Positions 477 through 14,332 of a stretch of 64,000 bases of DNA are shown one piece after another. Source of the DNA: Loktanella sp. M215 (GTDB taxonomy: Bacteria; Pseudomonadota; Alphaproteobacteria; Rhodobacterales; Rhodobacteraceae); NCBI RefSeq assembly GCF_021735925.1, contig NZ_WMEA01000001.1, positions 1,332,001 to 1,396,000 of the forward strand, read 5' to 3'. A program made the position numbers and the translations under genes. How positions within the stretch are numbered: the stretch's first letter is position 1; each line of letters opens with the position of its first letter. The notes beneath the pieces are model-generated. The model saw nothing but the letters and a program-made list of their open reading frames with translations. It did no database searches and was not told the DNA's origin.

Positions 477-495
477 TTATGCTGCCTGCGATTGA
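340..495 (+). CDS. Possible small or remnant ORF of 51 aa, unrecognised
   Basis: The frame has G/C-ending codons typical of neighbouring genes and reads as plausible protein around ALIFFAKTDVCDDIERRALQ. It has no good ribosome binding site of its own; the strong site at 285-290 sits before a different frame. It ends inside the 3' end of the leftward histidine kinase gene. It may be the tail of a frameshifted gene, or chance. I do not recognise the sequence and assign no function. Confidence 0.2.
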   Translation: MRGQPGDGALIFFAKTDVCDDIERRALQTLPAVLDTGSSPSAGFRAYAACD

Positions 496-1700
496 CCATT
501 GGCGATTTGCAAAGGGAGCGAGACCGTAAACTTTGCGCCATGGCCCAGCCTGCTGTCGACGGTTATCAATCCGTTCAGGTGTTCGACGGTCCGCTTCACG
601 ATGGTCATGCCGAGTCCGGTCCCCCCATAGGTTCGGGAAATATTCGCGTCCGCCTGCTCGAACTCTTCGAAGATTCGCGCGTGATCGGCCGACGCGATCC
701 CGATCCCCGTGTCGCAGACTTCAATCACGATCTGGCCGTAGGAGTCTTCCTTGAGGTGGACCCGGACATATCCGGAATCGGTGAACTTGACCGCATTGCC
801 GACCAGATTTTGCACAATGGTCGTCAACGCCTTTCGGTCGACAAAATAGGTGTTTTTGCCAAGCTGGTTGTCGATCTCGAGTGCCACTGATTTCGACTCT
901 GCGAGAGGTGAAAACTCGGCCAGAATGTCGCTCATGAGATCGACAAGAGGGGTTTCCTCCAGAACGGATTCGATCTGCCCCGCGTCAATCTTGGCGAGAT
1001 CCAGAACATCGCTTACAAAGGTCATCAGCTTGTCTGCTGATCGGGTCAGGATGTCATTCAGACGCGCCGACTGCCGATCAGACTTGGCGTGGCTCAACAT
1101 CTTGATCGAAGCGATGATGCCGGTCAGCGGCGTCCTGATTTCATGACTGATATGCGCGATGTAACTGCTGCGGCTTGCGAGGAGGTCCTGAAGCCGCTCT
1201 CGCGCTCTGCGTTCTTCCAGCGCCAGCGTCCGTGCTTTGATGATGTCATCGACGCAGCATGCAAGCTTTTCAAGCATCTCGATATCGCGCGCTGACCAGT
1301 CTCTGATCGTATGCGTCATACAACACAGGGAACCGATCACCCTGCCGGTCGTCGTATGGATCGGACTTCCGATATACGACCGCAAATTCTGCGCTTGCAG
1401 AAGGGAATTGGTCTGCGTGCGAATGTCTTTTTGCAGGTCAGGGATCGCGACGGTCCGGCGTGTCGCGACGACATGCTTGCAAATCGAGTCTTCAAGACAT
1501 GTTTCGCAATGATCCATCGGATCGAAAAGTGGACCAACGGACGCGGCGATGAGTTGCCGTCCTTCTACTGTTTCGACCACGGAGACATGAGATACCGGCG
1601 CTTCCAGCAAGCAGCCTGCAAGTTTGACGATGTTGAGAATGCTCTCGTCAATGCCTTGATGCAGGAGGCCAAGCGCTTCAAACGTGTAAGCCTTAGCCAA
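477..1700 (-). CDS. GAF-domain sensor histidine kinase
   Basis: A 407-aa protein without membrane segments, so probably a cytoplasmic sensor. Residues about 20-155 form a GAF domain, with a Cys-rich patch CETCLEDSICKH (65-76) typical of the subgroup often paired with kinases. A coiled linker (about 155-180) leads to the HisKA helix with the phospho-acceptor H186 in SHEIRTPL. The ATPase domain has the N box NLVGNAVKFT, G1 box DTGIGI and G2 box GGTGLGM. No response regulator or receiver domain is adjacent, so the partner lies elsewhere. Residues C65 and C68 could bind a metal or sense redox state, but that is inference. Confidence 0.9.
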   Translation of the reverse strand: MAKAYTFEALGLLHQGIDESILNIVKLAGCLLEAPVSHVSVVETVEGRQLIAASVGPLFDPMDHCETCLEDSICKHVVATRRTVAIPDLQKDIRTQTNSLLQAQNLRSYIGSPIHTTTGRVIGSLCCMTHTIRDWSARDIEMLEKLACCVDDIIKARTLALEERRARERLQDLLASRSSYIAHISHEIRTPLTGIIASIKMLSHAKSDRQSARLNDILTRSADKLMTFVSDVLDLAKIDAGQIESVLEETPLVDLMSDILAEFSPLAESKSVALEIDNQLGKNTYFVDRKALTTIVQNLVGNAVKFTDSGYVRVHLKEDSYGQIVIEVCDTGIGIASADHARIFEEFEQADANISRTYGGTGLGMTIVKRTVEHLNGLITVDSRLGHGAKFTVSLPLQIANGQSQAA

Positions 1701-2163
1701 GATTTATCCCTCATTTTTTGCAGTTTAGCTTTGATAGAGATCGGCGATCTTAAGGTGTTAAATCAGGCAAATGTGTGACTGAACCAAGCGTCACGGCGGG
1801 AATCTTATCAAGAGAATAAAATTGTATCAGCCAAGTCTCGCCTCATCTTGATGATGACGGCTAGCGCAGATCCTGACCGAGACCCGCGCGGTCTGGCCAA
1901 AGTCATGCCATCCGGCCCCGGCAGCGCCTGATCCTTGGTCGTCGTGTCGGCGGCACTGAACCGCGCATGAACGCGGCGTTTGGCGTTTGCGGGCTGCGCC
2001 ACTGCAGCGGTGCCTGCCTTCCAAGATTGCAGAATTGCAATGATCGCGAAAACGACGCTGCACACAGGCGGACCAGAAACACGGTTGCAGGCGCCGTGAC
2101 GCAATCGCGGTGACCTGCATCTGATTGTCCGGCTGCTGGCCGGATCCACCGAGGATTTTTGCC
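1701..2163. other. 463-bp gap: kinase promoter region and unassigned sequence
   Basis: The AT-richer part at about 1700-1840 should hold the leftward promoter of the histidine kinase. Between 1808 and 2065 the minus strand has an open frame with a hydrophobic segment near its start (VVFAIIAIL), but only a GTG start and no ribosome binding site, so I do not call it. The final 40 bases carry the ribosome binding site of the gene at 2164. No repeat or RNA gene is evident. Confidence 0.4.
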
Positions 2164-2805
2164 ATGAAGAACTTCTTGCTCAGCACTGTGCTGATCATCG
2201 TTCCGGTCGCCGTCTTTGCGGTCGGTTACACAGCACTGTCACCGGCCCCGACCGCGGCGTCACAGGCCACGGCGGCCCGTCTGGGTGACATGACGCCCTT
2301 CCAGACGATCACGACCGACGTGCAATCCATTGTGGCGACCGGCGATCTGGCCGCGGCGCAGACGCGGATCACCGACCTTGAAACCGCATGGGATGACGCG
2401 CAGTCCACGCTGCGGCCCAACAATACCAGCGCCTGGGGCCATGTCGATGGCGCCATCGACGATGCGCTGTCTGCCCTGCGGGCCAAGGCGCCCGATGCCG
2501 GGCAGGTGGATGTGACGCTGGTCCGCCTGCAGACGGCCCTTGCCGACCCGACTGCAGGCGGTGACGCAGCGGGCGTCGCCCGGACGGTGTCGGGCGTGGC
2601 CACCACCGACGCCAACGGGCGCGCGCTGCCCTGCGAGGTGATGCTGGAACAGTTCCGCAGCACGCTTGCCGTCGCCACAGTGGCAGAGGCGGACCGCGCG
2701 ACCATCGATACGCTTCAGTCCAAGGGGACGGAGCGGTGCAACGCCGACGATGATACGCGCGCCGATGATTTCTTTGCGCAGGGCATTGCCCTGATGACCA
2801 ACTGA
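2164..2805 (+). CDS. Exported protein of unknown function, membrane-anchored or periplasmic
   Basis: A 213-aa protein starting at ATG 2164, preceded by a GAGG element; an upstream TTG at 2125 is less likely. Residues 3-24 form one hydrophobic segment without charged residues, suggesting a signal peptide or N-terminal anchor. The rest is Ala/Thr/Asp-rich and mostly helical, with two Cys (in LPCEVML and ERCNADD) that could form a disulfide. It ends 22 bp before the COG4705 membrane protein gene, so the two are probably co-transcribed. I cannot name a family. Confidence 0.7.
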   Translation: MKNFLLSTVLIIVPVAVFAVGYTALSPAPTAASQATAARLGDMTPFQTITTDVQSIVATGDLAAAQTRITDLETAWDDAQSTLRPNNTSAWGHVDGAIDDALSALRAKAPDAGQVDVTLVRLQTALADPTAGGDAAGVARTVSGVATTDANGRALPCEVMLEQFRSTLAVATVAEADRATIDTLQSKGTERCNADDDTRADDFFAQGIALMTN

Positions 2806-2827
2806 TCCCGCCTGAAGGAGGCTCGAC

Positions 2828-3634
2828 ATGACGACGCTCACTTATGGGACCGCTGCCGATACCGGCACGGCCCACACGCATGACACCCCGAACCGTGTCC
2901 CGGCGGTGACGGTCAGTTTCTGGCTGATCAAGCTGATGGCCGTGACCATGGGCGAGACGGCTGCCGACTTTCTGGCGGTCAATCTCGGCCTGGGGCTGAC
3001 GGCCACGTCGCTGCTGATGGCGGCTGTGCTGGTCGTGGCGCTGGTGCTGCAGTTCCGTCAGAAGCGCTATGTGCCGTGGTCCTACTGGCTGGCGGTCGTG
3101 CTGATCTCGATCGTGGGGACGCTGGTGACGGACAATCTGGTCGACAACTTTGGTGTGTCGCTGGTCACGACGACGGTGCTGTTCACCGTCCTGCTGGGGC
3201 TGACCTTCGCAGCCTGGTATGGATCAGAGCGTACGCTGTCGATCCACGAGGTCAAGACGACGCGGCGCGAGGCGTTCTACTGGCTTGCGATCCTGTTCAC
3301 CTTCGCGCTTGGCACGGCGGCGGGCGATCTGGTGGCAGAGCATTTCGGGCTGGGCTACCTTGCCACGGGGATCCTGTTCGGGATGATCATCGCGTCGATC
3401 ACGGCAGGATACTTTGCGCTGACGCTGAACGGGATCTGGGCCTTCTGGATCGCCTATATCTTTACCCGGCCTCTGGGTGCTTCCTTTGGCGATCTGCTGT
3501 CGCAGCCTGCGGATTACGGCGGCCTTGGCCTTGGCACGATCGTCACGAGCGCGCTGTTTCTGGCTGCCATCATCGGGATCGTCATCTACATGTCGTTGAC
3601 CCGCGTGGGACAGGAGGCGCCATCGCACGCCTGA
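2828..3634 (+). CDS. COG4705/DUF347-type integral membrane protein
   Basis: A 268-aa protein with about eight hydrophobic helices in four related two-helix repeats. Each repeat carries a G-(E/T)-x-x-(A/T)-D motif in a helix: MGETAADFL, GTLVTDNLV, GTAAGDLVA and ASFGDLL, usually followed by a G-hydrophobic pair (NLGLGL, HFGLGY). That fourfold repeat is the hallmark of the uncharacterised COG4705 (DUF347) family. Conserved acidic residues inside membrane helices suggest ion or metal transport, but no substrate is established as far as I know. An AAGGAGG-like site at 2814-2820 precedes the ATG. Confidence 0.8.
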   Translation: MTTLTYGTAADTGTAHTHDTPNRVPAVTVSFWLIKLMAVTMGETAADFLAVNLGLGLTATSLLMAAVLVVALVLQFRQKRYVPWSYWLAVVLISIVGTLVTDNLVDNFGVSLVTTTVLFTVLLGLTFAAWYGSERTLSIHEVKTTRREAFYWLAILFTFALGTAAGDLVAEHFGLGYLATGILFGMIIASITAGYFALTLNGIWAFWIAYIFTRPLGASFGDLLSQPADYGGLGLGTIVTSALFLAAIIGIVIYMSLTRVGQEAPSHA

Positions 3635-3690: not shown

Positions 3691-3773
3691 ATCCTGTGCC
3701 GCGGTCGCGGAAAACTGCGCGGAACCGAAACCATGGCAATCCCTTCACATTGATATGCGGCCCGATCATTTTA

Positions 3774-3862: not shown

Positions 3863-4816
3863 ATGTCACCAGCAGACTCTGACGCCCACAAGGGCCGACG
3901 GCACCTTTTCAGGTGGATCGTGCCCTGCCTCTTCGGGGCGGGCGGCGTATTGGCGGCGTGGTTCCTGTGGCACATCGATTGGCCGCACACGATCGCGGCG
4001 TGGCACCGTCTGGACACTGGCACCATCGCACTGGCGCTGGCGCTGACGGGGGTGAGCTATTGCGGGCTGGCTGCCTATGACGTGATCGCGGTCAGCACGT
4101 TGAGGCCGCTGCAAATCGCGCGCGCTGCGGCGGCCGTCACCGGGGCCACGGCCTTTGGCATCTCCAATTTTCTGGGCTTTCCGCTGGTGACCGGCACGGC
4201 GGTGCGCGTCAGGATGTACGGCGTCGCGCGGAACGACCTTGGCCCGCTGCTCAGCGTCGTGGGCTCTGGCTGGGTGGCGTTCTGGCTGGTCAGCATCGCG
4301 CTGTGCGGCGCGATCCTGGCGGTCCGGCCCGACGCGCTCCTGTGGGCTGACGCCGCGACCGCCGTGCGTCTGGGCGGTATCATACTGGTGTTGGCGGTTG
4401 CAGCGTTTCTGGCGTGGCTGGGTGACGGGCGGTCGGCGACGGTCTGGCAGACGCGGCTGGACTTCATCAGCCGACGCCTGACGGCGTTGCAGATGCTGGC
4501 GGCGGTGGTCGATATCGTGGCCTCTGGCTTGGTCCTGTATCTGTTTCTGCCGCCGGATCTGGCGGGCGATCTGGCGGGGTTCATGGCGATCTATGTGCTG
4601 GCCGTGGGGCTGGGCGTCCTCAGCCACAGTCCCGGTGGGTTGGGATCCTTCGAGGCGACGATCATGGTCGGGCTGGGCGGGCTGGGGCGCGCCGATCTGG
4701 CGACGGGGCTGCTGCTGTACCGATTGTTCCGGACAGTGCTGCCCTTTGGGCTGGCGGTCGTGGTGCTGGCGGTGGCGGGACGATCCGGCGGGCGTCTGTC
4801 GGCGGTGCAACCATGA
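3863..4816 (+). CDS. MprF/UPF0104-type multi-pass membrane protein (possible lipid flippase)
   Basis: A 317-aa protein with about eight membrane helices. Two stretches identify the family: SNFLGFPLVTGTAVRVRMY (about 111-129) and SPGGLGSFEATI (about 254-265). They match the signature of the lysylphosphatidylglycerol-synthase transmembrane region, which in MprF moves aminoacylated lipids to the outer leaflet. No soluble aminoacyl-transferase domain is present. Its stop overlaps the next start (ATGA at 4813-4816). Because the same operon contains a CDP-alcohol phosphatidyltransferase, moving a modified lipid is an attractive role, but this is inference. Confidence 0.8.
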   Translation: MSPADSDAHKGRRHLFRWIVPCLFGAGGVLAAWFLWHIDWPHTIAAWHRLDTGTIALALALTGVSYCGLAAYDVIAVSTLRPLQIARAAAAVTGATAFGISNFLGFPLVTGTAVRVRMYGVARNDLGPLLSVVGSGWVAFWLVSIALCGAILAVRPDALLWADAATAVRLGGIILVLAVAAFLAWLGDGRSATVWQTRLDFISRRLTALQMLAAVVDIVASGLVLYLFLPPDLAGDLAGFMAIYVLAVGLGVLSHSPGGLGSFEATIMVGLGGLGRADLATGLLLYRLFRTVLPFGLAVVVLAVAGRSGGRLSAVQP

Positions 4817-5466
4817 AGATCACGACCTTTTCCGAACTGACGATCGACGGCAAGCTGACCCTGACCCGCGGCGGGTCGAGCAAGGCATTGTTCCGGTTTT
4901 ACGGGGCCGAGATGGGGCAGTGGTTCCATGCCCAGCGGGCTGCCCACGATGCGATCATGGTCGGTGCCGGGACCGTGCGGGCCGACGATCCGGAACTGAC
5001 CGTGCGCCATGTGACGGGCCGCAGCCCGCTGCGGGTGATCCCGACCAATGACGGCAACATTCCCGCGCACAGCCATATCCTGACCGACGGTCAGCCGACC
5101 CTGTTCGCGGTGCCGCAGGCCCTGCCGGACGCGGCCCGCGCGCGGCTGCGGCACCATGACGGCATTTCATTTATCGACTGCGGGGCGGACAGGGTCGATC
5201 TGCGCCTGCTGGCCCACGGCCTTGCGGAGCGCGGGATCGCGTCCCTGATGGTCGAAGGCGGCAGCCAAATCCTGCACGGGCTGTTCGCGCAGCATCTGGT
5301 CGACCGCATTGTCATCAAACACATCCCGGTCATTGCCGGGGCTACGGATGCGCCGACGTACCTTGAGGGCCGCCCCATGGACCTTTCCCGCTGGAGGATC
5401 GTTGAGTGCTGCGTGATCGGCGGGGTCGCGGTGACAATCTACGACAGGCAGGAGGACGAAGCATGA
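4813..5466 (+). CDS. RibD C-terminal-type pyrimidine reductase, stand-alone
   Basis: A 217-aa protein matching the reductase half of RibD (dihydrofolate-reductase-like fold, NADPH-dependent). Visible signatures are SELTIDGKL near the N-terminus, DAIMVGAGTVRADDPELTVR (about 46-65) and LMVEGGSQILHGLF with LVDRIVIKHIPVIAG in the C-terminal half. In riboflavin synthesis this domain reduces a ribosylamino-pyrimidine to its ribitylamino form. The deaminase half is absent and no ribB, ribE or ribH is nearby, so a specialised pathway is more likely than housekeeping riboflavin synthesis. It overlaps both neighbours by ATGA junctions. Confidence 0.85.
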   Translation: MKITTFSELTIDGKLTLTRGGSSKALFRFYGAEMGQWFHAQRAAHDAIMVGAGTVRADDPELTVRHVTGRSPLRVIPTNDGNIPAHSHILTDGQPTLFAVPQALPDAARARLRHHDGISFIDCGADRVDLRLLAHGLAERGIASLMVEGGSQILHGLFAQHLVDRIVIKHIPVIAGATDAPTYLEGRPMDLSRWRIVECCVIGGVAVTIYDRQEDEA

Positions 5467-6677
5467 TCGCTCAGGACATGATTGCCGCCGGTGCGGCCCT
5501 GCAGGACCGCACCCCGGATGGCGCGCCGCAGGTGTTCGACCTGCGGATCGATCATGCGGCCTTGTCGGACCATCCGTCGCGGCAGATCGTGCGCCATGTG
5601 CAGCAGGAACTGCTGATGCGGACCTATCAGAACCGGTTTGTCCTGTTGCCGCAGGTCGATGCACCCGGCTCCGTCGTGCAGATGTTGCACGACCGGTATG
5701 ACCCCAAGGCCACCCATGCCCTGGACGGGTATCGGGCGGCCCTTGAAGAGGCGCTGATCGAACCCGTCGTGAACGATCTGCGGCCGGGGATCGCGGGGCA
5801 GGGGGTGGAGGATTATATCGCCGGCATGCTGGACGGCATCCGCAAGTGCCCGCCGTCCGCCTTTCTGACGTGGCTGGAGGGGGTGCCGCAGGGCGAGCCC
5901 TACTATCGCAACTTCCTGATCCAGTCCTCTGCCGATCTGCTGGCAGAGGCCTCTGCCTCTGCCATGGGTGTGATCGGAGAGTTCGGCGCGCCGCAGTCGG
6001 CACTGTTCCGCATCCTGATCGACGAGTTCGGCTATGGCACCCACGACAAGAAGCACAGCGTGCTGTTCCGCGACACCCTGCGCGGGTTCGGGCTGAACAC
6101 CGAATACAACGGCTATTGGCCGATCTTCGATACCGAGGCGCTGCACCTGCACAACGTCATCCATTATCTGTTCCAGAGCCCGCGCAACCTGTTCCGGCAG
6201 ATCGGGTTCCTGCTTTATGCCGAGACCAGCTATCAGGTGTCGACCGGGCAGCATTACCGCTACCTCAAGCGGCATCACCCGCAGGTCGATGGCACCTATT
6301 TCGGCGAACACGCGCATATCGACATCCACCATTCCGACATGGTCATCAACGAGGTCGTCAAACCGCTGGTTGCGCGGTTCGGGGCAGAGGTCGGGACGGA
6401 AGTCATCCTTGGCGCCGAACTGACACGTCTTGCCTTTGCGGCAGCGGACCGGCACGCGCTGGCCGTCTGTCAGGCGTTCGAGGCGGCGCGGCTGGACGGG
6501 GCCGCCACCTTTGCCGCGCCTCTGCACGATGCCTCCGGTCAGGCGCTGGTGACGCCTGACACGGCCGAACGGCACGACGGCAAGGTGCAGGTCGGTGGCA
6601 TGGGGCTGCTGCACAAGGCCGCCGATTTCGCGGCCTTCCCAGCCGGGTCCACGGGGCGTCTTCATGTCGACGTCTGA
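5463..6677 (+). CDS. Haem-oxygenase-like di-iron protein (iron-containing redox enzyme family)
   Basis: A 404-aa soluble, mostly helical protein. Candidate metal ligands are E188 and H198 in DEFGYGTHDKKH, and the cluster E282, H283, D287, H290 in GEHAHIDIHH. This E/H plus D-x2-H pattern is typical of haem-oxygenase-like di-iron oxidases/oxygenases (UndA, BesC and SznF are characterised members), which carry out N-oxygenation or C-C cleavage. It starts in an ATGA overlap with the reductase gene and overlaps the Rieske gene by 14 bp, so the ferredoxin may deliver electrons to it. The substrate is unknown. At about 400 aa it is longer than the 230-270 aa common for the simplest members. Confidence 0.75.
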   Translation: MIAQDMIAAGAALQDRTPDGAPQVFDLRIDHAALSDHPSRQIVRHVQQELLMRTYQNRFVLLPQVDAPGSVVQMLHDRYDPKATHALDGYRAALEEALIEPVVNDLRPGIAGQGVEDYIAGMLDGIRKCPPSAFLTWLEGVPQGEPYYRNFLIQSSADLLAEASASAMGVIGEFGAPQSALFRILIDEFGYGTHDKKHSVLFRDTLRGFGLNTEYNGYWPIFDTEALHLHNVIHYLFQSPRNLFRQIGFLLYAETSYQVSTGQHYRYLKRHHPQVDGTYFGEHAHIDIHHSDMVINEVVKPLVARFGAEVGTEVILGAELTRLAFAAADRHALAVCQAFEAARLDGAATFAAPLHDASGQALVTPDTAERHDGKVQVGGMGLLHKAADFAAFPAGSTGRLHVDV

Positions 6678-6927
6678 CGGCAGCACGTGGATCGGGCGCG
6701 ACCTGCCGCCCATCGTCCGCGATGGACGCGACTATTTCCTGCTGTCCCACAAGGGCGAGATGTTTCTGATCGAGAACCTGTGCCCACACCGGGGCGGGCC
6801 GTTGAAGTTCGGTTATGTCGATGAGGCGTGCCGCATCGTCTGCCCGATGCACCACAATGCCTATGCCGCCGACCGCCTGATCGCACAGCCGACGACCTTG
6901 CGCCTGACGGCCGAGGCTGTCGCGTGA
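6664..6927 (+). CDS. Small Rieske [2Fe-2S] protein
   Basis: An 87-aa protein consisting of little more than a Rieske fold. Cluster ligands are clear: C40-P-H42 in CPHRGGPL and C60-P-M-H63 in CPMHHNAY, a C-x-H / C-x2-H pair 17 residues apart. There is no signal peptide or membrane anchor, so it is a soluble electron carrier like the ferredoxins of ring-hydroxylating systems. The ATG at 6664 lies inside the end of the di-iron gene; its stop overlaps the GTG of the next gene. A role as electron donor to the adjacent di-iron protein is inferred from context. Confidence 0.88.
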   Translation: MSTSDGSTWIGRDLPPIVRDGRDYFLLSHKGEMFLIENLCPHRGGPLKFGYVDEACRIVCPMHHNAYAADRLIAQPTTLRLTAEAVA

Positions 6928-7532
6928 CGTCGTTGCACTACCTTTGGCGCGAGGGTGGCCCGGTCAAGGCCGCGAACCTTTTGACGCTGAGCCGCGGGGT
7001 TCTGATCCTGCCGATTGCGGGGATTTTGCTGAGCGGGAGGGTTCTGTTGCCGCTGGCGCTGTACGGTGTTGCCGTGCTGACCGACGGGGTGGACGGCTGG
7101 CTGGCGCGCCGGTCCGGGCGGATGTCGGACTTTGGCGCGACATTGGACGCGGTGGTCGACAACCTGCTGTCGGTGGCCATTGTGCTGTTCATGTGGCTGT
7201 CGGTGCCAGAGGTCTTTGCCGCTTGGCCCGTGTCGCTGGCGCTGCTGTTCATCGTGCCGCTGCTCTATCTGCCGCTGTCGTGGCTGATGACGGGCAAAGT
7301 GTTGATGTTCCACTTCACCTCGGCCCGCATCGGGGCGTTCCTGCTGTTCGCCCTTTGGCCCCTCGTGGTGCTGACCGGGATCACGGCGCTGGTGCCGCTG
7401 ACCGCCGCCGTCGTCGTGGCCAGCCGGATCGAGCAGATCGTCTTCATCCTGCGCGGTGGCCGCGATCAGGATGCGCGGCACGGGGCGGCGGCCATTCCGG
7501 ATTTTCACGTTGACGACAGGATGACCCCATGA
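6924..7532 (+). CDS. CDP-alcohol phosphatidyltransferase family membrane protein
   Basis: A 202-aa protein starting with GTG at 6924 (GTGA overlap with the Rieske stop). The full catalytic signature is present: D57-G-x2-A61-R62-x8-G71-x3-D75-x3-D79, plus D54 just before it. Around it are five or six hydrophobic helices. The family moves a CDP-linked phospho-alcohol, or the phosphatidyl group of CDP-diacylglycerol, onto an alcohol acceptor in the inner membrane. The genes around it point to an unusual acceptor or head group rather than ordinary phosphatidylglycerol-phosphate or phosphatidylserine synthesis. Its stop overlaps the cyclohydrolase start by ATGA. Confidence 0.88.
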   Translation: MTSLHYLWREGGPVKAANLLTLSRGVLILPIAGILLSGRVLLPLALYGVAVLTDGVDGWLARRSGRMSDFGATLDAVVDNLLSVAIVLFMWLSVPEVFAAWPVSLALLFIVPLLYLPLSWLMTGKVLMFHFTSARIGAFLLFALWPLVVLTGITALVPLTAAVVVASRIEQIVFILRGGRDQDARHGAAAIPDFHVDDRMTP

Positions 7533-8680
7533 CGACGCCCTATCCCCTGAACTGGGGTGCCGCGCGTGCCCGCGCCCGCGGCCCTGTCGTGACCTCGCCC
7601 GCGCCGGACCGGAACGCCATCGGCGTGCACGCCGGCGGCTATGCCGTCTATGGCGGGCTGTCCGTCGCCACCGGCGCGCTGGCGGCAGAGCATCATGCGG
7701 ATTACACCGACACGCAGCCGATGGTGCAGATCGGGCCGTTTCCCCAGTGGTCCGACCCCGGACGTATCGTCACCTTCGATCCCTTCGGTCACCGAGTCGT
7801 CCAGGACTTCGGGGCCGAGATTGCGGCCGGGCTGAACCTGCGTCCGACCATCGCCGTGACCACGGGGCAGTTGGCGATTCCGGAAATCGCCACGGCCCTG
7901 TTTCGGCGGGATCTGCAGGCGGACGGCCGTATCCTGTCGCGGCAGGGCGACATCAGCGTGACCAAGATTTCGATCGACCCGGTCTGGCATCTGCCGGGGA
8001 TCGCGCGGCGGCTGGGGCTGGACGAAGGCGTGATGCGGCAGGCCCTCGTCGACCAGTCGGGGGGGATGTATCCCGATCTTGTCGCACGCCCCGACCTGCC
8101 GCTGTTCCTGCCGCCCATCGGTGGCACCAGCGTTTATCTATTCGGCGATCCCGCGCGTCTGGGGCAGGCGCGCACGCAGGTCACCTGCCGGATGCACGAC
8201 GAATGCAACGGGTCGGATGTCTTTGGGTCCGACCTGTGCACCTGCCGTCCCTATCTGATCCACGGGATCGAGGAGTGTATCCGGGGCGCGCAGCAGGGCG
8301 GTGTCGGCATCATCGTCTATAACCGCAAGGAAGGCCGCGCGCTGGGCGAGGTGGTGAAATACCTTGTCTACAACGCGCGCAAGCGGGCCAGCGGTGGCGA
8401 CTTGCCGGGCGAATATTTCACGCATACCCATCAGGTCGCCGGTGTCGACGACATGCGCCTGCAGGAACTCTCGACCGACGTGCTGCATTGGCTGGGCGTG
8501 ACCCGCGTGGCGCACTGGGTGTCGATGAGCAACCTCAAGCGCGATGCGGTACTGCAATCGGGCATTGCCATCGACCGTCAGGTCGAGATTCCCCACGACC
8601 GCATCGCGCCCAACGCGCGGGTCGAAATCTCGGCCAAGATCGGAGCCGGCTATGAAGGCACGTTCGGCCGGACGGGATGA
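7529..8680 (+). CDS. Divergent GTP cyclohydrolase II-family enzyme (URC1-like)
   Basis: A 383-aa protein, about twice a normal RibA cyclohydrolase. The zinc ligands of the GTP cyclohydrolase II fold are kept: C226, C237 and C239 in DEC-x10-CTC. The catalytic loop reads YNRKEGRALGEVVKYLVYNA (264-283), where RibA enzymes have RQEGRGIGL. The long N-terminal extension and the RALGEV variant resemble URC1-type proteins, first described in yeast uracil catabolism, rather than canonical RibA. The usual URC4/DUF1688 partner and a uracil phosphoribosyltransferase are not adjacent. Substrate could be GTP or another ribosylated base. It is the last gene of the operon and converges on glpR. Confidence 0.8.
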   Translation: MTTPYPLNWGAARARARGPVVTSPAPDRNAIGVHAGGYAVYGGLSVATGALAAEHHADYTDTQPMVQIGPFPQWSDPGRIVTFDPFGHRVVQDFGAEIAAGLNLRPTIAVTTGQLAIPEIATALFRRDLQADGRILSRQGDISVTKISIDPVWHLPGIARRLGLDEGVMRQALVDQSGGMYPDLVARPDLPLFLPPIGGTSVYLFGDPARLGQARTQVTCRMHDECNGSDVFGSDLCTCRPYLIHGIEECIRGAQQGGVGIIVYNRKEGRALGEVVKYLVYNARKRASGGDLPGEYFTHTHQVAGVDDMRLQELSTDVLHWLGVTRVAHWVSMSNLKRDAVLQSGIAIDRQVEIPHDRIAPNARVEISAKIGAGYEGTFGRTG

Positions 8681-8694
8681 TCGCCCGCGGTGCG

Positions 8695-9474
8695 TCAGGC
8701 CGGTTCGGCAGAGGGCTGATTGACGCGGATATCGGTGTGCCACCGCGTGCAGAGGTCCTGTAGGCCCTGCGACACGGTGGCGTCCGTAAAGAAGACGTCG
8801 ATATCCGACAGCGATCCGATCCGGGCCGGGGCCTTGCGCTTGAATTTGGTCGAGTCGGCGATCAGCATCTTGCGGCGTGACTGGTTCAGGATCGTCTGGC
8901 TGACGCCGACCTCGCGCAGGTCGAAGTCGAGGATGTCGCCGTCGGGGTCGATGGCCGAACAGCCGATCACGCCGATGTCGAACTTGAATTGCCGGATCGT
9001 GGCGGTGGTGATGTCGCCGGTCAGGCCGCCATCGGACTGCCGCAGGGCACCGCCGGTCACGATCACCTCGCAGTCGGGATTGCGCGTCAGGATGTTGGCC
9101 ACGTTCATGTTGTTGGTGACGACCAGCAGGTTGCGATGGTGCAGCAGTTCGGTCGCCACGGCCTCTGTGCTGGTGCCGATGTTCAGAAAGATGGCGCAAT
9201 CTTCTGGGATTATTGCCGCGCAGGCCTTGGCCATGGCGGTCTTGCCTTCGGCATTCAGACGGCGGCGTTCCTCGTAGGCGATGTTCACGGTGCCGGACGG
9301 CAGCACCGCCCCGCCATGGACACGTTCCAGCTTGCCCGCGTCGGCCAGCTCGCTCAGGTCGCGGCGGATGGTCTGCAGGGTGACGCCCAGATGCTCTGCC
9401 AGATGTTCGACGGTCACCTTGCCGTCGCGCCGTGCGATGTCGAGGATCTCTGGGTGCCTGATGGTTTGCGACAT
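8695..9474 (-). CDS. glpR: DeoR-family repressor of glycerol genes
   Basis: A 259-aa protein. The N-terminal winged helix-turn-helix contains VEHLAEHLGVTLQTIRRDL (22-40), the DeoR signature. The C-terminal sugar-phosphate sensor domain has the phosphate-binding turns NIGTSTEAVA and VVTNNMN and a late LIADSTKF. It is divergent from glpD-glpSTPQUV with a 243-bp space between, as for GlpR-controlled glycerol genes in other proteobacteria. The inducer is expected to be glycerol-3-phosphate (family knowledge). Confidence 0.9.
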   Translation of the reverse strand: MSQTIRHPEILDIARRDGKVTVEHLAEHLGVTLQTIRRDLSELADAGKLERVHGGAVLPSGTVNIAYEERRRLNAEGKTAMAKACAAIIPEDCAIFLNIGTSTEAVATELLHHRNLLVVTNNMNVANILTRNPDCEVIVTGGALRQSDGGLTGDITTATIRQFKFDIGVIGCSAIDPDGDILDFDLREVGVSQTILNQSRRKMLIADSTKFKRKAPARIGSLSDIDVFFTDATVSQGLQDLCTRWHTDIRVNQPSAEPA

Positions 9475-9641
9475 GGGCGTCTTCCGATGGTGACGGCCTG
9501 ACTATGGCAGGGTTTGCGAAAAAAGGAACATGGCTTTTGGTCTCTGATGTTCGTTTTGGCGCGCCATCAAGCCAGATTTGCCGATTGTCCTGACGATTAC
9601 CGCACTGAACCTCCTGATATCCGCCGATTTTGCCAAAAACG

Positions 9642-9668
9642 AAGAAAACCGAAAATGGGGGTTTTCTT
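9642..9668. promoter_or_regulatory. Inverted repeat in the glpR-glpD space, candidate GlpR operator
   Basis: A perfect 9-bp inverted repeat, AAGAAAACC (9642-9650) and GGTTTTCTT (9660-9668), with a 9-bp spacer. The minus strand of this region also contains TTTTCG and TTCGTTTTT motifs; TTCG-rich repeats are common in DeoR/GlpR operators. It lies 50 bp upstream of the glpD start, a fitting place for repression. Binding is inferred. Confidence 0.45.
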
Positions 9669-9717
9669 TTGGGTGCGTCAACGCAATAGTGTTCGTAAGG
9701 ATTTGGGAGGATCCAGT

Positions 9718-11301
9718 GTGAGTGACGACACGGATATCCGTGACCTGCTGGTCATTGGCGGCGGCATAAACGGTTGCGGCATTGCGCGCGATGCGGCAGG
9801 CCGTGGGCTGTCGGTAACGCTGGCCGAAATGTCCGACCTCGCCTCTGCCACGTCCTCTGCGTCGACCAAGCTGTTTCACGGCGGCCTGCGCTATCTGGAG
9901 TATTTCGAGTTTCGACTGGTCCGAGAGGCCTTGATTGAGCGCGAGACGCTGCTGCGCGCGATGCCGCACATCAGCTGGCCTATGCGCTTCGTGCTGCCCT
10001 ATTCCCCCGACATGCGGTTCGAAAACGACACGCCGACATCCAAGCTGATGTCGACCGTCATGCCGTGGATGAAGGGGCGCCGCCCGGCCTGGCTGATCCG
10101 CCTGGGCCTGCTGATGTATGACACGCTGGGCGGTCGCAAGATCCTGCCGGGCACGAAGACGCTGGATCTGACCAACACGCCCGAAGGGGCGCCGTTGATC
10201 GACAGCTTTACAAAAGCCTATGAATACAGCGATTGCTGGGTCGAGGATTCCCGCCTTGTGGCCCTGAATGCCCGCGATGCGGTGGCGCGGGGCGCGAGCG
10301 TGCTGACCCGGACCAAGGTTGTGTCCGCGCAGACCGAGGGCGGTCATTGGGTCGTTACGTTGAAGGATACGGAGACCGGTGCGCAGCGGGTTGTCCGCGC
10401 GCGCATGGTGGTGAATGCAGGCGGGCCGTGGGTGGGGCAGATTTTGCGCCAGCAGATCGGGTCCAACAGTCAGGACGACGTGCGCCTCGTGCGCGGCAGC
10501 CATATCGTCGTCAAGCGGCTGTTCGATCACGACAAATGCTATTTCTTTCAGGGCACCGACGGACGCATCATGTTCGCGATCCCCTACGAGACGGATTTCA
10601 CGCTAATCGGCACGACCGATCAGGAACACCACGACGTGGGCGAAAAGCCGGTCTGTACGCCGGAAGAGCAGCGCTACATGGTCGATTTCGTCAACGCCTA
10701 CCTCAAGCAGCCGATCAGCACCGATGACATCGTCTGGACCTATTCCGGCGTGCGGCCGCTTTACGATGACGGGGCCAGTTCCGCGACGGCGGCCACCCGC
10801 GATTATACGTTGAAGCTGGACGACAGTGCCGGCGCGCCCGCGCTGAACATCTTTGGCGGCAAGATCACGACCTATCGCCGTCTGGCCGAAAGCGCGCTGG
10901 AGAAGATCGGCAAGCGGCTGGATGTGGCCCAAGGGCCGTGGACCGCCGGTGTGGCGATGCCCGGTGGCGATTTTCCGGTGGGCGACGTGGACCGGTTGAT
11001 CGCCGATCTGACGCGTGATTATCCATTCCTGACAGAGCGCTGGGCGCGCCGCCTGATCCGCGCGTATGGCACCGATGCGGCGCTGATCCTGGGCGAGGCC
11101 AAGGCTGCCGCCGATCTGGGGCAGGATTTCGGCGCCACGCTGACGGCGGCAGAGGTCGACTGGCTGATGACCCATGAATTCGCCCGCACCGCCGAGGATG
11201 TCCTGTGGCGGCGCAGCAAGCTGGGCCTGCACGGTGCCGATGGTGCCGCACTTGATACCTACATGACCGCCCGCCGCCCGCAGTTGAAGGACATCGCATG
11301 A
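9718..11301 (+). CDS. glpD: Aerobic glycerol-3-phosphate dehydrogenase
   Basis: A 527-aa flavoprotein that oxidises glycerol-3-phosphate to dihydroxyacetone phosphate and passes electrons to quinone at the inner membrane face. The FAD-binding motif GGGINGCGIARDAAGRG is at residues 14-30, followed by TKLFHGGLRYLEYFE. Later signatures are YSDCWVEDSRL, NAGGPWVGQ, RGSHIVV and FGGKITTYRRLAE. The open frame extends upstream, but GTG 9718 has a strong GGGAGG seven bases before it and gives the correct N-terminus. Its stop overlaps the glpS start by ATGA, so it leads the transporter operon. Confidence 0.95.
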   Translation: MSDDTDIRDLLVIGGGINGCGIARDAAGRGLSVTLAEMSDLASATSSASTKLFHGGLRYLEYFEFRLVREALIERETLLRAMPHISWPMRFVLPYSPDMRFENDTPTSKLMSTVMPWMKGRRPAWLIRLGLLMYDTLGGRKILPGTKTLDLTNTPEGAPLIDSFTKAYEYSDCWVEDSRLVALNARDAVARGASVLTRTKVVSAQTEGGHWVVTLKDTETGAQRVVRARMVVNAGGPWVGQILRQQIGSNSQDDVRLVRGSHIVVKRLFDHDKCYFFQGTDGRIMFAIPYETDFTLIGTTDQEHHDVGEKPVCTPEEQRYMVDFVNAYLKQPISTDDIVWTYSGVRPLYDDGASSATAATRDYTLKLDDSAGAPALNIFGGKITTYRRLAESALEKIGKRLDVAQGPWTAGVAMPGGDFPVGDVDRLIADLTRDYPFLTERWARRLIRAYGTDAALILGEAKAAADLGQDFGATLTAAEVDWLMTHEFARTAEDVLWRRSKLGLHGADGAALDTYMTARRPQLKDIA

Positions 11302-12377
11302 CACTGGAACTTGACGGCGTCAGCTATGTGGTCGGCGCGCAGACCTTCATCCATCCGACGACTTTGACCCTGGAGAAGGGCACGATGAATGTCCTGCTGG
11401 GGCCGACGTCTTCGGGCAAGACGACGCTGATGCGGTTGATGGCGGGCCTTGATGTGCCGACCAAGGGCCGCATCCGCTGGAACGGTGACGACGTGACCGG
11501 CCAGCGTGTGCAGGACCGCAAGATCGCGATGGTCTACCAGCAGTTCATCAACTACCCGGCGATGAGCGTCTACGACAACATTGCCTCGCCCATGAAGCTG
11601 ATGGGTCTGGATAAGAAAGAGATCGACCGCCGCGTGCGCGAGACGGCCGAGCTGATGCAGCTGACGCCGATGCTGCAGCGCAAGCCGCTGGAATTGTCGG
11701 GCGGGCAGCAGCAGCGTTGCGCGCTGGCCCGCGCGCTGGTCAAGAACGCGGGTCTTGTGCTGCTGGACGAGCCGCTGGCGAACCTTGACTACAAGCTGCG
11801 CGAGGAATTGCGTGCCGAAATCCCGCGCATCTTTGCAGAGTCTGGCTCCATCTTCGTCTATGCGACGACAGAGCCGGAGGAGGCGCTGCTGCTGGGCGGC
11901 AATTGCGCGACCCTGTGGGAAGGGCGCGTGACGCAGTTCGGCACCACCTCGCTGGTCTATCGCAATCCCACCGACGCCACGACCGCGCGCGTCTTTTCCG
12001 ACCCGCCGATGAATTTCCTGAGCGTGGAAAAGCGCGGCGACCGTATGCATTTCGGCAAGGACAAATCCATCCCCGCCGTCGAGCGCGACGTGGATGACGG
12101 ACGCTACATGCTCGGCTTCCGGCCCAACCACCTGACGCTGGACGGTGGCGACGACCGCATCCGGTTCGACACGACCCTGTCCGTGATGGAGATCACCGGG
12201 TCGGAGACTTTCGTCCACCTGGCGCATGGCGACGCCCGCTGGGTCGGCCTGATCCACGGTATCCGCGACCTGAAGCCGGGGCAGGCGCTGCCGGTCTACC
12301 TTGACCCGTCGCGTGTCTATCTTTTCGCGGACAATGGCGACCTCGTCGCGACCGCCCCCTATGCAGAGGCCGCCTGA
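11298..12377 (+). CDS. glpS: Glycerol ABC importer ATPase GlpS
   Basis: A 359-aa CUT1-type ABC ATPase with a C-terminal TOBE-like regulatory region. Walker A is GPTSSGKT (35-42), Q-loop VYQQFINYP, signature LSGGQ (133-137), Walker B LVLLDEP (153-159). The switch (H-loop) histidine is missing: YATTEPEEAL has T191 where most relatives have His. The gene order glpD-S-T-P-Q-U-V is that of the Rhizobium leguminosarum glycerol importer, so glycerol is the likely substrate. Confidence 0.9.
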   Translation: MTLELDGVSYVVGAQTFIHPTTLTLEKGTMNVLLGPTSSGKTTLMRLMAGLDVPTKGRIRWNGDDVTGQRVQDRKIAMVYQQFINYPAMSVYDNIASPMKLMGLDKKEIDRRVRETAELMQLTPMLQRKPLELSGGQQQRCALARALVKNAGLVLLDEPLANLDYKLREELRAEIPRIFAESGSIFVYATTEPEEALLLGGNCATLWEGRVTQFGTTSLVYRNPTDATTARVFSDPPMNFLSVEKRGDRMHFGKDKSIPAVERDVDDGRYMLGFRPNHLTLDGGDDRIRFDTTLSVMEITGSETFVHLAHGDARWVGLIHGIRDLKPGQALPVYLDPSRVYLFADNGDLVATAPYAEAA

Positions 12378-12380
12378 CCC

Positions 12381-13459
<1,079 letters not shown>

Positions 13460-13463
<4 letters not shown>

Positions 13464-14328
13464 ACAAGACCGTCAATCAGAAGGCGTGGTTCCTTGTTCT
13501 GCCGGTCCTGCTGCTGGTCGCCTTCTCTGCCGTGATCCCGCTGATGACCGTGGTGAACTATTCGGTGCAGGACACCTTTGGGAACAACCAGTTCTTCTGG
13601 GCGGGGCTGTCGTGGTTCGACGACATGCTGCATTCGGACCGGATGTGGAACGCGCTGGGCCGGCAGATGATGTTCTCGGCCATCATTCTGGCGATCGAGG
13701 TGCCGCTGGGCATCTTTGTCGCCCTCAACATGCCGAAAAAGGGATTCTGGTCGTCCTTCTGCCTTGTCGTGATGTCGCTGCCGCTGCTGATCCCGTGGAA
13801 CGTGGTCGGCACGATCTGGCAGATCTTCGGCCGGGTCGATATCGGCCTGCTGGGCTATACGCTGGCGGCGTTCGGCATCGATTACAACTACACACAGAAC
13901 ATTTTTGATGCCTGGATGACGGTCATTGTCATGGATGTGTGGCACTGGACCTCGCTGGTGGCGCTGCTGGCCTACGCCGGGCTGAGGTCGATCCCCGATG
14001 CCTATTATCAGGCCGCCAAGATTGATCAGGCCAGCCGCTGGGCCGTGTTCCGGTATATCGAGCTGCCGAAGATGGCCGGTGTGCTGATGATCGCGATCCT
14101 GCTGCGGTTCATGGACAGCTTCATGATCTACACCGAACCTTTCGTGCTGACGGGCGGCGGGCCGGGGAACGCCACGACCTTCCTGTCCATCGACCTTGTG
14201 AAGATGGCGTTGGGACAGTTCGACCTCGGCCCCGCAGCCGCATTCAGTCTGATGTATTTCCTCGTCATCATGGCGATCAGCTGGGTGTTCTATACCGTGA
14301 TGACGACCCTCGACAAAAGGGATGGCAA

Positions 14329-14332
<4 letters not shown>
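13460..14332 (+). CDS. glpP: Glycerol ABC importer permease GlpP
   Basis: A 290-aa permease of the sugar/glycerol type (MalF-like) with six predicted helices. The first helix is about residues 9-29 (FLVLPVLLLVAFSAVIPL). The cytoplasmic EAA-type coupling loop is AAKIDQASRWAVFRYIELPK, which contacts the ATPases. The late FVLTGGGPGNATTFL is typical of MalF-family permeases. It overlaps both neighbours by ATGA junctions. Confidence 0.9.

Follow-up and report, generated by a model that had tools for sequence, protein, structure and literature searches.

A sporadic six-gene operon in Loktanella sp. M215 joins a Urc1-family protein and an SznF-type di-iron protein to lipid enzymes, possibly for an N-oxidized phospholipid head group

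Six plus-strand genes, at positions 3863-8680 of a 64,000-nucleotide stretch of the Loktanella sp. M215 genome (contig NZ_WMEA01000001.1, positions 1,332,001 to 1,396,000; hereafter the window), form a genuine, conserved and sporadic operon, for which the gene set, its conservation, the family memberships and the active-site residues were observed directly. As far as a text search of the open-access literature shows, this gene combination is undescribed, though each of the enzyme families is known; the search returned no publication with the six-gene set. We tentatively favor the reading, possible though short of probable, that the operon diverts a pyrimidine nucleotide, most likely uridine monophosphate (UMP), into an N-oxidized ureido-ribitol-type phospholipid head group.

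The genes, here called g1 to g6 in their order of transcription, were assigned to families with Pfam and NCBIfam models. A stand-alone MprF flippase-like membrane domain of 317 residues without the synthase half is encoded by g1 (3863-4816), as judged from NF033480, a plasmid match and comparison of orthologues. It is followed by a RibD_C-type NADPH reductase of 217 residues (g2, 4813-5466; PF01872, 130.9 bits, and residue alignment), an SznF-type haem-oxygenase-like di-iron protein of 404 residues with no cupin domain (g3, 5463-6677; PF14518), a small Rieske [2Fe-2S] protein of 87 residues (g4, 6664-6927; PF00355), a CDP-alcohol phosphatidyltransferase of 202 residues with a GTG start (g5, 6924-7532; PF01066, 54.8 bits) and a Urc1-family protein of 383 residues that databases label GTP cyclohydrolase II (g6, 7529-8680; PF12471, NF005536/PRK07198). 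Successive genes overlap by 4, 4, 14, 4 and 4 bases. An earlier interpretation made from the letters of the DNA (the sequence-only reading) had placed overlapping junctions at 4813, 5463, 6664, 6924 and 7529 and had considered it very likely that the products are made together; the coordinates were confirmed, and a single translationally coupled unit is supported.

The same gene order recurs in Cypionkella psychrotolerans and on plasmids of Rhizobium leguminosarum, which argues that the arrangement did not arise by chance. A scan of genome contigs with g3 gave a single locus, in C. psychrotolerans (L015), where g1 to g6 follow one another with identities of 42, 70, 64, 77, 60 and 70%, and where four of five junctions overlap and g3 and g4 are separated by a 2-base gap. 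The plasmid search with g3 gave seven records, three of R. leguminosarum (55-58% identity) and four others (29-40%). Two of the three R. leguminosarum records were examined (L013 and L014). The first holds g2 to g6 in the same order (53, 55, 65, 54 and 63% identity), and, with translation taken to start at the nearest in-frame ATGs, all four of its junctions overlap. In the second (strain RCAM0610, 9911-12047), the frames of g3 and g5 are interrupted, which may reflect sequencing errors or decay, and those of g2, g4 and g6 are open. Across the 11 gene pairs compared, the third codon position was the most divergent in every one. The co-occurrence of the six families that the sequence-only reading proposed to look for was thus found in two further lineages, with six genes in Cypionkella and five in Rhizobium.

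Outside these lineages the operon is scarce. Among 385 genomes of the class, g3 had six matches at 1e-10, of which five were partial and the only full-length one was that of the Loktanella genome itself, also the sole match among 390 genomes of the order. Three matches at 1e-20 were obtained from 398 genomes of the phylum, again full-length in the Loktanella genome only, the two others sharing 31% identity over residues 25-336 (these class, order and phylum samples overlap, and their totals are not additive). In a set of 15 Cypionkella genomes, g3 was present only in C. psychrotolerans itself. A search for g6 found it in three of 101 relatives, the Loktanella genome counted, and gave no match in the other eight members of that genus. 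Sporadic presence and carriage on plasmids suggest that the operon moves horizontally.

The profile scores indicate that g6 is a member of the Urc1 family and not a riboflavin-type GTP cyclohydrolase II. Its Pfam domains are GTP_CH_N (PF12471) and GTP_cyclohydro2 (PF00925, positions 35-164, 39 bits over a cut-off of 23.3), and it scores 575 bits against NF005536 (cut-off 403), a model that itself bears the name GTP cyclohydrolase II, as against 37.6 bits with the RibA model TIGR00505, far under the cut-off of 205.85. Besides the Loktanella genome, 35 of the 385 class genomes encode Urc1 relatives of g6 at 55-60% identity. In this respect the operon is like the uracil-catabolic URC operon (urc1-urc4-upp), from which it differs in carrying reductase, N-oxygenase, Rieske and lipid genes in place of Urc4 and upp. 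Twenty-nine of the 35 had stored loci and were used for counting and for a tree, the six without loci being omitted; within flanks of approximately 1.5 kb, searched by tblastn on both strands, Urc4 was found at 28 and upp at 26 of the 29, and none had another gene of the operon beside Urc1. Among chosen canonical Urc1 loci, Urc4 and upp were adjacent in all seven analyzed by tblastn and in both analyzed by annotation. Thirteen other plasmid records matched Urc1, and seven of them were examined. By tblastn, neither Urc4 nor upp was present at any of the four operon loci (the 64-kb window and L013-L015), and Urc4 was not found in the genomes of Loktanella and Cypionkella or in the Rhizobium plasmid record, in searches that detected both positive controls and did not include the Rhizobium chromosome. 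A canonical URC operon was rejected on the lack of Urc4 and upp. The one locus of the 29 with no Urc4 (L054/L070, genome G182) has a canonical-type Urc1, and neither Urc4 nor upp occurs in the 9.8 kb fetched of its 15.8-kb contig.

In an unrooted tree of 40 Urc1 proteins, the three operon copies share one side of a branch supported at 100/99, and the Rhizobium row is long. The 40 proteins share 114 invariant columns, and just three internal residues (22, 48 and 174) set the operon copies apart, being fixed in them and absent from the others, from which we infer that g6 has probably kept the Urc1 reaction and changed its pathway. In yeast, URC1 and URC6 yield ribosylurea, which URC4 degrades (PMC7530994). 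By analogy with that pathway, Urc1 without Urc4 should leave ribosylurea in place, presumably as a phosphate.

The g2 product and its two orthologues were aligned with the RibD of Loktanella, two other RibDs and two archaeal REDs, with residue roles drawn from PMC3631187 and PMC3668577. Like RibD and RED, the g2 group retains the GxGT and EGG motifs of the NADPH site, the catalytic acids D58 and E148 and the phosphate-binding R42 and R65. Unlike them, it has no deaminase half, carries a Tyr in place of their Thr/Ser and has a 4-residue insertion. At the pyrimidine-recognition position, where riboflavin reductases are described in the same two papers as having Lys in bacteria, Thr in fungi and Asn in archaea, the residues of the three g2 orthologues are Phe, Leu and Phe. 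The g2 group has no counterpart of RibD's stacking Trp, which the two archaeal REDs lack as well. These residues would fit an enzyme that still binds a ribose phosphate and does not bind the pyrimidine of riboflavin synthesis, which is what the reduction of ribosylurea phosphate would require.

The best solved match of g3 is SznF of streptozotocin biosynthesis (also StzF), with an E-value of 4.7e-36 over residues 48-326. The g3 di-iron domain has the same seven ligands as SznF (E162, E188, H198, E254, H283, D287 and H290), and none of these varies across the seven rows of the alignment, one of which is the SznF piece itself. From E188 onward, these six ligands correspond to positions at which substitution by Ala inactivated SznF (PMC11705231), and E254 matches the additional carboxylate that marks the 3H/4C subset, estimated in PMC13108848 at a quarter of haem-oxygenase-like di-iron (HDO) proteins. 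In contrast to SznF, g3 is without the cupin half, and so without the site of N-N bond formation: it has no Pfam cupin match, and no C-terminal HxH occurs in the three operon copies. SznF-type N-nitrosation by g3 was ruled out on this ground. Arginine-type biosynthetic partners, another feature of the SznF system, are also lacking from the operon. The likeness to SznF suggests that g3 oxidizes a nitrogen in a urea- or guanidine-like group. SznF itself hydroxylates a guanidine, and an isosteric urea is the candidate substrate here.

In g4, the motifs C40xH42 and C60xxH63 are invariant in the three orthologues. We inspected three SznF-like HDO-cupin genes from other genomes of the class (L018-L020), relatives of g3 that do have a cupin match, and two of them (L019 and L020) have a Rieske match no more than 3 kb away; such neighbors support g4 as the putative electron donor of g3. 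The third locus (L018:7344-12574), in a small genome of 1.3 Mb on a single contig (G264), holds genes for an SznF-like HDO-cupin protein, a methyltransferase-like protein and an ATP-grasp protein together with a small Rieske-like open reading frame, and is possibly an uncharacterized N-nitroso gene cluster.

CDP-alcohol phosphatidyltransferases carry the catalytic motif DxxDGxxAR(x8)GxxxDxxxD. It is complete in g5 (D54xxD57GxxAR(x8)GxxxD75xxxD79) and invariant in the three orthologues, and the solved chains closest to g5 are CDP-diacylglycerol-serine O-phosphatidyltransferases (E-values of 2.3e-5 and 6.4e-5). No cytidylyltransferase was seen among the Pfam-named neighbors or by eye, some neighboring reading frames being unscanned, and CDP-diacylglycerol is thus the likely donor. 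The g1 product matches positions 7-297 of the 841 in NF033480 (154.7 bits, cut-off 600), scores 24.4 bits against the Pfam model LPG_synthase_TM (cut-off 33.4) and has mprF as its best plasmid match (38%). On these partial matches, g1 is the flippase-like half of MprF only. It thereby resembles the flippase part of the lysyl-phosphatidylglycerol synthase-flippases MprF and LpiA, and differs from them in having no aminoacyl-transferase half and in having a CDP-alcohol phosphatidyltransferase as its partner.

These assignments bear on the family calls of the sequence-only reading. Its CDP-alcohol phosphatidyltransferase holds, as do its remarks that the RibD deaminase half is missing, g2 being RibD_C only, and that no riboflavin-specific partner stands beside the operon. 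Its MprF-type protein is the flippase-like half only; its di-iron protein was placed in the correct family with the likeness to SznF unnoticed; and its RibD reductase belongs to that family, with a changed residue at the pyrimidine-recognition position. The GTP-cyclohydrolase chemistry it proposed is not supported, because g6 groups with the Urc1 proteins that act in uracil catabolism, and this grouping, together with the hydrophobic residue at the recognition position of g2, disfavors a product of pyrimidine or flavin type. Of its suggested ribityl-containing lipid, the ribityl-type reduction and the lipid end-point survive in the reading preferred here, which drops GTP and the flavin.

In the proposed pathway, g6 would open the uracil ring to give N-ribosylurea 5'-phosphate. 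With Urc4 lacking, g2 would reduce C1' of the ribosyl group to give 1-ureido-1-deoxyribitol 5-phosphate, by Schiff-base chemistry as in riboflavin synthesis. The ureido group would then be N-hydroxylated by g3 with electrons donated by g4, g5 would move a phosphatidyl group from CDP-diacylglycerol onto the polyol, and g1 would flip the resulting lipid. Every substrate in this scheme, the order of N-hydroxylation and phosphatidyl transfer, the product and any role in stress are what we infer from the sequences, and each proposed step predicts a defined mass.

Several observations weigh against this pathway. The best relatives of g6 with solved structures, 7eev and 7ej3, bear the name GTP cyclohydrolase II, and no paper on 7EEV/7EJ3 was found in the open-access literature. 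The yeast steps behind ribosylurea are called uncharacterized in PMC7530994. Neither the missing Trp nor the changed Thr is diagnostic for g2, as the two archaeal REDs also have no Trp and have Ser. At L018, the Rieske-like reading frame adjoining the SznF-like gene was recognized by eye and is matched by no Pfam model. The PgsA, PIP-synthase and PssA models give g5 similar scores, all under their cut-offs, so that no acceptor is indicated; the operon encodes no phosphatase, an enzyme that a 5-phosphate product might require; and in the Rhizobium operon of L013, g1 is not adjacent. Structures of g5 and g3 predicted from two-row alignments were too poor to use (mean predicted local distance difference test scores of 52.8 and 34.3, respectively). 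Finally, the link of the operon to stress, described below, is suggestive only, its evidence being uneven.

Among other explanations, g6, g2, g3 and g4 might convert UMP into a soluble N-hydroxy-ureide that serves as a metal chelator, radical scavenger or inhibitor, with g5 and g1 forming a separate lipid adaptation. The absence of g1 from beside the Rhizobium operon agrees with this, and the SznF homologues described in PMC10849742 and PMC11705231 mostly serve soluble natural products. However, g5 lies between g4 and g6, with overlapping ends, in all three lineages, which would be odd for an unrelated gene, and we regard a soluble product as unlikely.

Less likely again is a variant of uracil catabolism, in which Urc1 opens UMP and other enzymes replace Urc4 and dispose of ribosylurea to free its nitrogen. 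It would accord with the failure to find Urc4 in the three records searched and with g6, which keeps the residues that are conserved among the Urc1 proteins of Urc4-type operons. It accords poorly with the lack of upp from the window and L013-L015, and a phosphatidyltransferase and a flippase-like gene are ill-suited to it, as are reduction and N-oxidation, neither of which releases urea.

That g3 acts on a lipid acyl chain, by desaturation or cleavage, and not on nitrogen seems to us quite improbable. The first validated HDO, UndA, does act on a fatty acid (PMC13108848), but the six matches that g3 has up to an E-value of 1 do not include UndA, and both the best solved match, the N-oxygenase SznF, and the retained SznF-type E254 speak for nitrogen. 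The idea of a riboflavin-like route, in which GTP would undergo ring opening and reduction and a lipid or cofactor would receive a pyrimidine- or flavin-like group, draws on the PF00925 and PF01872 matches and on the database names of g6 and 7eev/7ej3, and is very improbable given the Urc1 affiliation of g6, the recognition position of g2 and the separate riboflavin loci of the Loktanella genome (a RibD locus at C1:3523691, together with two further loci that have a GTP cyclohydrolase II domain). A riboflavin or pterin reading was rejected on the model scores, the g2 residues and these separate loci.

The surroundings of the operon offer some hints of a stress context. The consensus of EcfG-type (stress-sigma) promoters is GGAAC-N16/17-CGTT. 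A candidate motif of this type, GGAAC-N16-CCTT, one mismatch from the consensus, lies on the plus strand of the window at 3721-3745; it was equalled in 88 of 1000 Markov-shuffled sequences and is weak alone. An exact motif lies upstream of g1 in the Cypionkella operon (L015:8307-8331; exact in eight of 1000 shuffles), and none was found directly upstream of the operon in L013 or L014. The Loktanella genome encodes NepR. HWE/HisKA_2 histidine kinases and receiver-only regulators occur near the operon in both L013 and L015, whereas the kinase near the window operon is of another type, GAF-HisKA (477-1700, minus strand). L015 encodes a catalase near the operon, and near that of L013 lie a YflT stress domain and a DUF892 protein; a YflT-like protein recognized by eye in L015 is matched by no Pfam model. 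Another exact EcfG-type motif of L015 (1376-1400) lies upstream of the large catalase gene (1519-3567), a few kb from the operon.

In the window, a gene for a DUF347 membrane protein (2828-3634) lies upstream of the operon. Downstream, a DeoR/GlpR-type repressor is encoded on the opposite strand (8695-9474), followed on the plus strand, up to 14332, by genes for a GlpD-like flavin adenine dinucleotide (FAD) oxidoreductase (9514-11301), two ATP-binding cassette (ABC) ATPases and a permease; judging from these families, the region 8695-14332 looks like a glycerol-type uptake locus.

In its fullest form, the proposal is that this operon encodes the first pathway to divert a pyrimidine nucleotide through Urc1 without Urc4 into biosynthesis, yielding a stress-linked N-hydroxyureido-ribitol phospholipid by way of an SznF-type N-oxygenase and a Rieske donor that would act on a nucleotide-derived urea, a claim that we put forward as doubtful. 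If it is true, the database names "GTP cyclohydrolase II" and "RibD" conceal a different pathway, SznF-type N-oxygenases would gain a new class of substrate, and Urc1 would have a use beyond uracil breakdown: a catabolic enzyme that opens nucleotides would have been recruited to build a membrane lipid with a new polar head group.

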